From positions 1 to 64,000 of IMG/VR virus record IMGVR_UViG_3300002460_000003: a stretch of 64,000 nucleotides of DNA. One strand, given 5' to 3'. The stretch is from a virus. Below the pieces are notes generated by a model, which was given only the letters and a program-made list of their open reading frames with translations, ran no database searches and was not told where the DNA came from. Numbering within the stretch: the first letter of the stretch is position 1; every line of letters starts with the position of its first letter. Shown here in pieces: positions 4,901 through 27,503 of this stretch. Both the position numbers and the translations under genes were made by a program.

Positions 4901-4929
4901 AGTTTAGATGATGTTTAGAGTGGAGTCAA
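4901..4929 (-). promoter_or_regulatory. Candidate sigma70 promoter (leftward)
   Basis: On the minus strand TTGACT and TAAACT are separated by exactly 17 bases. It lies in the 120-base gap before the gene at 4536-4784, partly over the 3' end of the membrane-protein gene at 4926-5120. Confidence 0.4.
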
Positions 4930-22143: not shown

Positions 22144-22533
22144 ATGAACATCATTATAGAAAAACGACAATACAGTAAATCTCTGTTATCCTCATACCCA
22201 AGCAGGATTTTTGTATTTGGTGATAACATGAAACGTTATGGTAAGCGAGGTCAAGCCATCATACGAGATGAACCAAACGCTTTTGGAATAGCCACAAAGC
22301 GATACCCAAGTATGGATGATTGGGCATTCTTTTCTGACAAAGACGATGAGTTTGATTGTGTACTAGGTGATCTTAGGAAACTCTATAAGCTCAGTAAAGG
22401 TAACACAATTGTATTCCCAGCAGCAGGTATTGGAACAGGATTAGCTGACATGGAGAATAGAAGTTTTGCTTTATGGTCTAAGATGAATTCAATACTTAAA
22501 GATTATTTTGGTTATATTAACGGAAACAGTTGA
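22144..22533 (+). CDS. DUF7831-like conserved phage protein, 129 aa
   Basis: Carries FVFGDNMKRYGKRGQA, PNAFGIATKRYPS and FPAAGIGTGLADM, a set conserved in proteins of many large phages. The Gly-rich FGDN and GIGTGLA loops suggest a nucleotide-binding, possibly macro-domain-like fold, but activity is unknown. AGGAGG precedes the start; coupled to the zinc-finger gene. Confidence 0.6.
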   Translation: MNIIIEKRQYSKSLLSSYPSRIFVFGDNMKRYGKRGQAIIRDEPNAFGIATKRYPSMDDWAFFSDKDDEFDCVLGDLRKLYKLSKGNTIVFPAAGIGTGLADMENRSFALWSKMNSILKDYFGYINGNS

Positions 22534-22763: not shown

Positions 22764-22770
22764 ATAATGC

Positions 22771-22799
22771 TTGACAAACTGTCATAAAACTGCTATAGT
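22771..22799 (+). promoter_or_regulatory. Strong sigma70 promoter before the structured RNA
   Basis: TTGACA, 17-base spacer, TATAGT. It is not followed by any reading frame for about 330 bases but by a run of strong RNA hairpins. Confidence 0.8.
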
Positions 22800-22805
22800 T
22801 CAATT

Positions 22806-22950
22806 GTAAGAGTAGTGGTTTTTCTGACGCTATTATTTAGATTTCTAAAGACCTGATGCTATACTTCGCAAGAAGTATCCTCCTCCAGCATCTCAAGGGT
22901 CTTTCTACAACTTTACTTTTCCTCTCCTCCTAAGTAAAGTTGTATTTTAA
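22806..22950 (+). ncRNA. Candidate small RNA with two anti-Shine-Dalgarno-like segments
   Basis: The transcript would begin around 22806. Element 1: AAAGACC (22847-22853) pairs with GGTCTTT (22898-22904), GATGCT with AGCATC, ATACTTC with GAAGTAT around a GCAA tetraloop, leaving CCTCCTCC (22879-22886) as a bulge. Element 2: a perfect 12-base stem (22907-22918 with 22932-22943) whose 13-base loop is CCTCTCCTCC-rich. Both unpaired stretches are complementary to AGGAGG ribosome sites. The final stem may double as a terminator, though its T-tract is weak. No open frame. Confidence 0.6.
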
Positions 22951-22993
22951 TGTGTTTTGAAAACGTGCGTGACACGTCAATGCCTAGTCGGGC

Positions 22994-23065
22994 AGCAAGG
23001 TAGTTCAGAGGCAGAACACCGCATTGAAAAGCGGAATAGTCGGCGAGTCAGATAAGTCCCTTGCG
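22994..23065 (+). tRNA. Degenerate tRNA-Phe(GAA)-like sequence
   Basis: 72 bases, tRNA-sized. The six-base acceptor GCAAGG/CCTTGC, the D-arm GTTC/GAAC with TA before it, and an anticodon loop TTGAAAA identical to that of bacterial tRNA-Phe are present. The anticodon stem is one base short (CCGC/GCGG around eight bases) and no T-arm with TTCRA can be drawn. Probably a decayed tRNA or a tRNA-like element in the terminase leader; unlikely to be a working tRNA. Confidence 0.35.
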
Positions 23066-23130
23066 TAGATAGGAATTCACACCTATCCAGAACACACCAA
23101 AATGCAACTCATTGCAAAGAGAATAATAAG

Positions 23131-23529: not shown

Positions 23530-23539
23530 AGAATTAATG

Positions 23540-24080
23540 CTGGCTCATGGTTGGCTCGTTTATTCGTAGTCTAGAATACGGTAGACTTGTCGAAGGTTCG
23601 ATTCCTTTAAGCTTAGCTCCAGTTTAAATATCAATCTAGTTATTCACCAATAGTGAGGGTATTTTGAGATTGATAAACTAATTTGAAGTGTCGGCTTAAA
23701 TTATCGGAGAACGCGGCCGTGAACCCACTCCGAGCTTCAAATACAAAGCTCTGAAAAGGTTATTTAAATATAATCGTCTTCTGTAATGGAACAGAGAATC
23801 TAATCAAGCTGCGTGCTTGGTATCGGAACTGCCTAGTTCCCCGAGGCTCTGGCGGGCCTCACCTATTAATAATGCACCGAGTGATATTCTCGCGGAAAAC
23901 ACGGCTGAGTAAGAGGTGATTAAGTTCATGTTTTACGAGGGTGCCTAAAAATATCCCGTTACACGCCATACGGTTCTGAGATGCGTAATGACTGTCAGGA
24001 AAGACTGATTAGTGGAGAGGGTAGGAAGTATGTCCTATCAGATACCGAGCGTAGGATTAGTGGTGGCTACGGTATCAATT
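23540..24080 (+). ncRNA. Unassigned structured RNA locus with T-arm-like element
   Basis: No reading frame spans it. Seen: a perfect T-arm (GAAGG TTCGATT CCTTT, 23592-23608) directly after hairpin AGTCTA/TAGACT (23568-23587); nested helices 23606-23612/23694-23700 (7 bp), 23621-23625/23675-23679 and 23630-23637/23667-23674 (8 bp); five further hairpins at 23703-23850; GCTTGGTATC (23815-23824) able to pair with GATACCGAGC (24041-24050). The T-arm/hairpin block resembles the 3' end of tmRNA, and AAAGACTGATTAG plus TACCGAG at 24000-24049 resemble its pseudoknot-4/P2 strand. If so the gene is rearranged, with the acceptor part first. No convincing tag reading frame was found, so identity stays open. 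Confidence 0.45.
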
Positions 24081-24085
24081 ATTCT

Positions 24086-24160
24086 TGGTGAGTAGCTCAG
24101 AGGTAGAGCAGACGACTGTTAATCGTCCGGTCGGTGGTTCGATCCCACCCTTACCAGCCA
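24086..24160 (+). tRNA. tRNA-Asn (GTT), CCA encoded
   Basis: Full cloverleaf: acceptor TGGTGAG/CTTACCA, D-stem GCTC/GAGC, anticodon stem GACGA/TCGTC with loop CTGTTAA (anticodon GTT), T-arm GGTGG-TTCGATC-CCACC, then G and CCA. Confidence 0.95.
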
Positions 24161-25818: not shown

Positions 25819-27503
25819 ATGAGTGATTTTAGTTTCTCACCAGCGTCTAAGAAACAAGAATGGTTCTTATCAAGTGACGCTAATATTATTGTATATGGTG
25901 GTAAATTTGTGCCTCCATTTAAAACTCTCTTAAACGGGGAAAGCTAAGGGTAGATTACTACCTATGCCAATCCCGTGCCAATGTTTAAAGACAGTGCGTA
26001 GAGGCCATCGAAAACACACAGCAATGTGGAAGTGAGTAGAGTAGGGGTCAAGTGACTCCCGAAACAGAGAGAATTCTTTGAATTAAGAGTTGGTCCGACA
26101 ACACCTGAAAGGGTGGAAGAAGTTTAACGAACTTCAAAACTGATAAGGCAATGGGTGGTGGTAAGTCATATTGCGGCTTACTTCGCCATTTACGTTGGGT
26201 AGATGATCCACAATATCGTGGTTATGTAGTCCGTAAACAGCAAACAAGTATTATGGTTGCTGGTGGACTTTTTGACGAAGCTTATGGGTTATATAAAGCT
26301 TACGATCCAAATGTAAAACCAAATAAAAAAGCCATGACATTTACCTTCTCTTCCGGTGCGGTTGTGGCTATGGGTCACTGTGAAACCAATGAGGATGCTG
26401 AGAAATGGCGTGGTAGACAAGTATCGGCGTGCATGATCGACGAGGCCACACAGCTTCTAGAAGACCATGTTTTGGTTATTCTTTCTCGCCTACGATCTAA
26501 AGCAAAAATGGTTCCAAACCTTTTCTTAACTTGCAACCCGAACCCGGACAGTTTTGTTCGTCGTTGGATTGACTGGTGGATTATCCCTAAAGGTCAAGAG
26601 AATGCAGGAAGACCTGATCCAGAGCGTGATGGTAAGGTAAGATGGTTTATTCGTCAAAATAACGAAATGATTTGGGCAGACACAAGGCAAGAGTTACTTG
26701 ATACTTACGGAAGTCATGTACTCCCCCTCTCCTTACAATTCATCTCAGCAACAATCTACGATAACCCACCACTAATTAAATCCAACCCTGGATATCTTGC
26801 AAACCTTCAAGGTCTTAAACGTGTAAAACAAGAACGCGACCTTTACGGAAACTGGGATATTCGTGAAGATGCTTCTGGTTATTGGAAAGCCGAATGGCTT
26901 GGTGAACCAGTTAATCCATGTGATTTAGAAATTGTTTCTTACTGTAGAGCATGGGATATCGCTGGCTCGATCCCATCCGAATCCCTGCCAAATCCTGACT
27001 GGACTGCTGGAGTTTTAATAGGTAAAACAAAGACAGGGTTATATGTCATCGAAGATGTTGTGAGATTCAGAGCAAGGTTTGGTGAAGTCTTACAGAGAAT
27101 TATTGTTACCGCTAAATCTGATCCCGATGGTACTCAAATCATACTCCCCCAGGAGCCTGGACAAGCAGGAAAAGCTGCTGGTCAAATGATGATTAAAGAG
27201 CTTATTGAGGAAGGGTTCTACGCAAGAATGCGCCCATCTAATAAATCTAAAGTCATTCGTTTCCAACCTTTCGCAGCAGCAACAGAGGCTGGGTTAGTTA
27301 GATACGTGGCTGGTACTTGGAATGATGAGTATTTCTTTGAGCTAGAAGCATTCACTGGTGACAGAAAGAATAAGGATGACCAAGTGGACGCATCGTCTGA
27401 TGCCTTCATAACACTGGCTCAGAAAATGAATATACCAAACTTCCTCACAGGATTAAAATCAGCCGATTCTATCCTAACAACTACTAACCCATTTGCCCGA
27501 TAG
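25819..27503 (+). CDS. terL: Terminase large subunit, interrupted by a group I intron
   Basis: Exons 25819-25902 (28 codons) and 26148-27503; spliced product 479 residues. Exon 1 ends ...IIVYGG and exon 2 begins AMGGGKSYCG, so splicing rebuilds the Walker A loop GGAMGGGKS. Further motifs: Walker B ACMIDEATQL, the coupling motif LTCNPNP, and nuclease acidic residues CRAWDIAGS and KDDQVDASSDAF. The enzyme packages DNA by ATP-driven translocation and cuts it. Unspliced RNA gives only a 42-residue dead-end peptide, so active terminase depends on splicing. Confidence 0.93.
25903..26147 (+). ncRNA. Group I intron without an open reading frame
   Basis: 245 bases. P1: exon end ATGGTGGT pairs with internal guide GCCTCCAT (25911-25918), closing in the conserved U-G wobble at the splice site. 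P10: first exon-2 bases GCAA pair with TTGT (25907-25910). The core TTAAACGGGGAAAGC...AATCCCGTGCC forms P4 and closely resembles that of the T4 td intron; GGTAG/CTACC forms P5. Hairpins GGGGTCA/TGACTCCC, CACC/GGGTG and GAAGTT/AACTTC follow, and the last base is G. Small size and absence of a gene mean mobility would need an endonuclease encoded elsewhere. Confidence 0.92.

Follow-up and report, generated by a model that had tools for sequence, protein, structure and literature searches.

Tandem Hairpins with Conserved CU-Rich Loops Upstream of a Phage Terminase Gene: A Candidate Noncoding RNA That May Occlude Shine-Dalgarno Sites

The 64,000-nucleotide stretch analyzed here (the window, positions 1 to 64,000 of IMG/VR record IMGVR_UViG_3300002460_000003) belongs to a virus record of 88 kb, which encodes a terminase and a portal similar to those of phages of the Felix O1/Otagovirus/Nankokuvirus type. 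Around positions 22806–22950, upstream of the terminase gene terL, it carries a gene-free element that an earlier reading of the sequence (the original prediction) had described as a small RNA with two segments complementary to Shine-Dalgarno (SD) sequences. That reading is partly supported by the present analysis, in which we find that the element belongs to a family of tandem hairpins, in uncultivated phages, whose CU-rich loops are conserved while their stems vary freely. We have very little doubt that this is a real plus-strand structured RNA family. As the best overall explanation of it, we favor, with modest confidence, a trans-acting noncoding RNA that would occlude SD sites and thereby damp early mRNAs.

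Conserved Loops, Free Stems and the Functional Strand

We gathered about 50 viral contigs through the window terminase and an alignment of its relatives, and scanned them for CU-rich hairpin loops. In about 24 of these contigs, two to four hairpins with such loops form a cluster 2–9 kb upstream of terL, on the terL-sense strand. The members are uncultivated phage contigs with related terminases, in which the cluster always lies upstream of terL and usually comprises three tandem hairpins. From 5' to 3', the usual plan is GTTTCACC, P1 (with AAGA..TAA..TCTA inside), P2, P3 (AAAGA...UCUUU), P4, and then P5, where P2, P3 and P4 each bear a CU loop and P5 is a long branched hairpin of the form TTTCTTAA...TTGCAAG..CTTG...TTAAGAAA. 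We note that a variant P1 occurs in L045 (2100–2150) and L048 (7990–8040), with a TTCACGC/GCGTGAA stem and a loop containing UCCUCCU, which forms a fourth CU site. The family is absent from Rfam: at gathering scores, Rfam 15 recognizes in the window only tRNAs, at 24086 and 24166, and in the other loci searched its matches were confined to tRNAs and group I introns. When the window element and two relatives were searched against the DNA of INPHARED, there was likewise no significant match.

Because MAFFT alignments of these free-stem hairpins broke the stems, the comparison relied on the fold of each hairpin, with no covariance model for P2–P4. Among the 72 folded hairpins, the loop contains CUCC in 65, UCUCC in 59 and UCUCCU in 52, with CCUCC present in only 12; the loops are pyrimidine-rich, their consensus is CCUCUCCU, and several match it exactly. 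The original prediction had seen in the element a mimic of the 16S rRNA 3' end, of which the CUCCU anti-SD core is indeed shared, but the consensus (complement AGGAGAGG) is not the 16S tail. Conserved stems with loops that are not conserved, the pattern that the prediction took as counting against itself, were looked for in the relatives, and the reverse was found. When the same hairpin is compared across members, a 5-mer is shared by 90–99% of loop pairs compared to 2–11% of stem arms, stem-arm identity between members is 28–40%, and stems can change in a compensating manner, as in AAAGATCTATTG/CAATAGATCTTT of L033 and AAAGACCTATTG/CAATAGGTCTTT of L035. It is this pattern that a purely structural or processing RNA, whether a spacer protecting or processing a tRNA transcript or a packaging-linked RNA near terL, leaves unexplained. 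The location would suit such a role, as the RNA often adjoins tRNA genes directly (in several members it begins right after the tRNA CCA end, with GTTTCACC found there in L033, L047, L057 and L059) and lies a few kb from terL, yet we consider this account quite improbable.

The functional strand is settled as plus. The core fold is more stable on this strand in 23 of 24 members (mean −37.6, z −6.6, compared to −31.0 and −3.1 on the minus strand), and, within stems seeded by Watson-Crick pairs, internal wobble mismatches read as GU in 14 cases and as AC in 4 (p = 0.03). Upstream sigma70-type promoters on the plus strand score 10.8–12 in seven members, compared to a best score of 10 for those downstream on the minus strand. 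P5 retains U-G and G-U wobbles on the plus strand and covaries strongly, with 14 of its 26 pairs altered on both sides (0/500 shuffles), and shifted pairings collapse. In the loci searched, P5 occurs only directly behind CU hairpins, at a single place in each whole record having it; an example is the branched hairpin at 4914–4977 of L038, where the P5 model (R1) shows strong covariation. This model finds no match in the window, where P5 is missing or replaced.

With the plus strand supported, the loops are therefore read as mimics of the anti-SD sequence rather than as GGA sponges for CsrA, in keeping with the strand and anti-SD character originally proposed for the element, which the loop-SD pairing computations described below also support. 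The opposite assignment, in which the functional RNA would be the complement and would titrate CsrA/RsmA through purine loops, takes its appeal from the GGAG or AGGA that the complement of every loop places in a hairpin loop, on the plan of CsrB/RsmZ. These RNAs likewise combine tandem hairpins, a repeated loop motif and variable stems; their loops, however, carry GGA, whereas the strand supported here carries its complement, such that GGA is not found in the loops of the strand taken to be transcribed. The fold energies, the GU:AC ratio, the P5 wobbles, the stronger upstream plus-strand promoters and the plus-strand orientation of the neighboring tRNA genes all speak against a minus-strand sponge, which we reject on these strand tests and to which we assign next to no probability.

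Shine-Dalgarno Sites as Candidate Targets

In the window, 37 of 88 genes carry AGGAG, indicating that these phages use SD sequences. We counted SD types in the window and in 20-kb stretches of eight members, with "early" and "late" assigned by strand and gene order. SDs of the type AGGAGA/AGGAGG precede 110 of 334 opposite-strand (early) genes but only 31 of 253 same-strand (late) genes, with the same direction in 9/9 phages, and the predicted loop-SD duplex is on average stronger at opposite-strand genes (−7.7 kcal/mol) than at same-strand genes (−5.9 kcal/mol); the pooled p-values for these contrasts, 3e-9 and about 2e-12, respectively, overstate independence because the members are related. 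In addition, composition-matched shuffled loops pair worse with the SDs than the real loops do in 9/9 members. The suggested action on a small set of phage genes whose AGGAGG sites are strong is better recast as AGGAGR being far more common on opposite-strand than on late genes.

Taken together, these observations are consistent with a phage-encoded noncoding RNA that would be expressed on the plus strand under a host-type promoter (sigma70 consensus), perhaps together with the tRNA genes directly behind which it lies in many relatives, and that would then be released from the tRNA transcript. Its core of two to three, sometimes four, tandem hairpins would use variable stems to present short unpaired CU-rich segments (CCUCUCCU), which would pair in the cell with purine-rich SDs (AGGAGA/AGGAGG) and keep ribosomes off many mRNAs simultaneously; each of several equal loops would be able to occupy an SD. 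SD pairing is probably the main action of the RNA. Given its position on the late strand and the enrichment of strong AGGAGR sites on opposite-strand genes, the RNA would most likely serve to damp the translation of early phage mRNAs, as late genes take over; host mRNAs may be further targets. A role in the early-to-late switch as such we put forward tentatively.

Protein sponges of the CsrB/RsmZ type likewise combine variable stems with identical, repeated loops. The CU loops could accordingly titrate a host or phage protein, such as Rho, S1 or another pyrimidine-loop binder, with SD pairing being incidental, and the consensus CCUCUCCU is indeed tighter than anti-SD pairing alone requires. 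A composition-type binder such as Rho, however, would not need real loops to outdo same-composition shuffles at phage SDs, as they do in all nine phages, and we know of no bacterial protein with such CU-loop specificity, which makes a sponge of this kind rather unlikely. A further alternative is that the hairpins form a cis-acting leader, regulating or stabilizing the downstream gene of their own transcript without acting in trans. In the corresponding region of the Pseudomonas phages PAK_P3, KIL1, 254, Boevelstad and M1, there is one hairpin with a UUCCUCC- or UUCUCC-type loop, which in the first four of these lies close upstream of a gene, and the last hairpin of L034 is ~27 nucleotides (nt) from the next gene, as a leader would have it. 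The downstream gene nevertheless varies among members (DUF5681-like, tail-like, or more RNA), P5 and tRNA-like elements lie in between, and a single SD would not call for three to four equal loops; we therefore judge a cis-acting leader unlikely. We regard the protein sponge and the cis-acting leader as the likeliest of the alternatives to SD occlusion in trans.

A number of points, besides the relatedness of the members noted above, weigh against SD occlusion in trans as we propose it. The early/late contrast in SD strength is not specific proof, because of two cluster-free phages, G023 leans the same way, more weakly (5/29 vs 10/28), without the multi-hairpin RNA, while G022 shows no contrast. 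Start codons were picked partly by their SD match, which touches the comparison with coding stretches, not that of early with late genes. L032, which has the most similar terL beyond near-identical ones (90% identical), is without the cluster, and in L096, the contig with the nearest copy of the window element, one stem change yields a C-A mismatch. Transcription of the members is inferred from sequence, and expression need not be late, because the promoters look like host sigma70 promoters. Finally, RNA-seq of PAK_P3 has revealed two abundant late small RNAs, sRNA1 and sRNA2, between the early genes and terL, among tRNAs (PMC4933390); this is the same genome region in a related phage, but they have neither CU loops nor any structure in common with the RNA described here, and so support only the production of small RNAs by this region. 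We have accordingly rejected them as relatives.

The Element in the Window and Its Surroundings

The features of the window element are as follows, as derived from the fold and from comparison with the relatives.

22771–22799, plus strand: sigma70-type promoter, TTGACA-17-TATAGT with TG before the −10; strong same-strand promoters lie upstream in many members
22810–22838, plus strand: leader hairpin AGTAGTGG...CTATTATT, from the fold; an unrelated hairpin takes its place in the closest relative, L096
22839–22959, plus strand: conserved noncoding block, 95.2% identical to L096 6205–6329, with diverged noncoding flanks
22847–22904, plus strand: hairpin P3, stem AAAGACC...GGGTCTTT with a nested UUC-GCAA-GAA hairpin, from the fold and loop comparison
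22879–22886, plus strand: unpaired anti-SD segment CCUCCUCC, from the fold; L096 has one CCU unit more
22906–22944, plus strand: hairpin P4, 13-bp stem and 13-nt loop, from the fold
22919–22931, plus strand: anti-SD loop UUCCUCUCCUCCU, 13 nt, from the fold
22951–22959, plus strand: TGTGTTTTG motif at the end of the conserved block; a TTTCTCATGTGTTTTG-like motif follows P5 in several members

The near-consensus promoter leading into strong, gene-free hairpins is as originally described: the promoter-like site (TTGACA-N17-TATAGT) has 11/12 matches, and its score of 11.8 is the top of 11 candidates within 3 kb, in a window where just ~3% of 700-nt stretches reach even 10.8. There is no open reading frame of at least 40 amino acids within 22764–23101, and 22806–22950 folds with −41.8 kcal/mol in RNAfold (z = −4.79). 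Both proposed anti-SD segments are exposed and the 13-nt loop is real, but CCTCCTCC (22879–22886) is not a hairpin loop, being single-stranded on the 3' side of the 22847–22904 stem, beside the nested hairpin. The strongly folding extent first given also needs adjustment, in that the conserved unit is 22839–22959 and there is a third, weaker hairpin, the leader, which is not kept in L096. The window element thus comprises P3, whose AAAGA/UCUUU stem is the family anchor, and P4 only, its own leader hairpin replacing P1 and P2. As no convincing terminator was found downstream, a transcript length of ~140 nt is a guess.

In L096, a contig from a metagenome-assembled genome, the 125-nt block corresponding to 22839–22959 differs by two substitutions, one additional CCU unit and one single-base gap. 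The upstream promoter and leader and the downstream tRNA-like stretch are unrelated between the two, while neighboring genes are about 92–95% identical. The phage contig L096 (JASBTZ010000015.1), closely related to the window, was binned, probably wrongly, into a Bacteroidota genome assembly, and we do not trust this single genome-search match as pointing to a Bacteroidota host. Directly downstream of the RNA, at 22993–23066, lies a degenerate tRNA-like sequence, which scores 21.5 bits with the Rfam tRNA model (under the cut-off) and has an 8-nt anticodon loop; a similar sequence is present in L024/L044. Farther on, 23530–24085 (~550 nt) has no clear gene, tRNA remnants (a T-arm near 23600) and blocks 97–100% identical to L096, and may contain additional structured RNAs. 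On the other side of the RNA, 22144–22533 encodes a protein with macro-domain-like motifs FGDNMKRYGKRGQA and PAAGIGTGLADM, recognized by eye only. The window terL is itself interrupted, with exon 1 at 25819–25903 and exon 2 from about 26150; since Rfam detects group I introns at this place in relatives, the gap (25904–26149) is probably another one that scores under the Rfam cut-off.

Known Systems and Biological Implications

The closest likeness we find is to the alpha-r14/NfeR1 (cuckoo) sRNAs of alphaproteobacteria, which have three hairpins with highly different stems and an anti-SD motif unpaired in each (PMC10746234), and of which the rhizobial NfeR1 is reported to silence mRNAs at the SD via functionally redundant loops (PMC10746234). 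The three-hairpin plan is found in most of the phage relatives, with two hairpins in the window. The motif in alpha-r14/NfeR1, however, is the ultraconserved CCUCCUCCC, compared to CCUCUCCU in the phage family, and Rfam models of such sRNAs gave no match at E ≤ 5 in the window and L038, and none at gathering scores in eight loci; we therefore do not file the phage RNA as an NfeR1-family member. Unlike NfeR1, it also lies beside tRNA and terminase genes and includes two further elements, the conserved P1 and the branched P5. A chromosomal relative of the phage RNA was not found, and the resemblance is probably convergent, although by analogy the phage RNA may work in the same way.

Among phage RNAs, no match was found to the Rfam covariance models of GOLLD, ROOL and other large ornate RNAs. 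The T4 rnaC and rnaD (species 1 and 2 stable RNAs) likewise adjoin the phage tRNA cluster, but were rejected as relatives, lacking CU-rich hairpin loops. In PAK_P3, KIL1 and 254, a single hairpin with a UUCCUCCUCC-type loop directly follows a sigma70 promoter (L071 14652–14684, L074 5622–5647 and L073 8079–8112, respectively), with the next gene 20–40 nt downstream, and no tandem CU hairpins were found in the corresponding region of isolates Barba5S, HP1, phiPsa315, Arno18, Zyzzx and MAG1.

In terms of function, the early-gene SD bias suggests a job akin to that of T4 RegB, which cleaves GGAG in the SDs of early phage mRNAs and eases the transition to later stages (PMC3014915). RegB is a protein that cuts, whereas the phage RNA would pair, the parallel being that early mRNAs would be inactivated via the SD. 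The fullest version of this idea, in which a virus-encoded general anti-SD RNA silences early and host mRNAs and, as an RNA counterpart of RegB, drives the early-to-late switch, is one that we regard as a possibility, on the doubtful side.

Among the small RNAs of lytic phages, few have been assigned a function, and T4 rnaC and rnaD have stayed unexplained since the 1970s (PMC4933390). The RNA family described here is widespread and strongly patterned, and the mechanism proposed for it is direct. If this mechanism is correct, phages would reprogram translation by means of a multi-site anti-SD RNA, which would offer a natural and compact blueprint for silencing translation broadly and would bear on how phages lacking RegB retire their early mRNAs.
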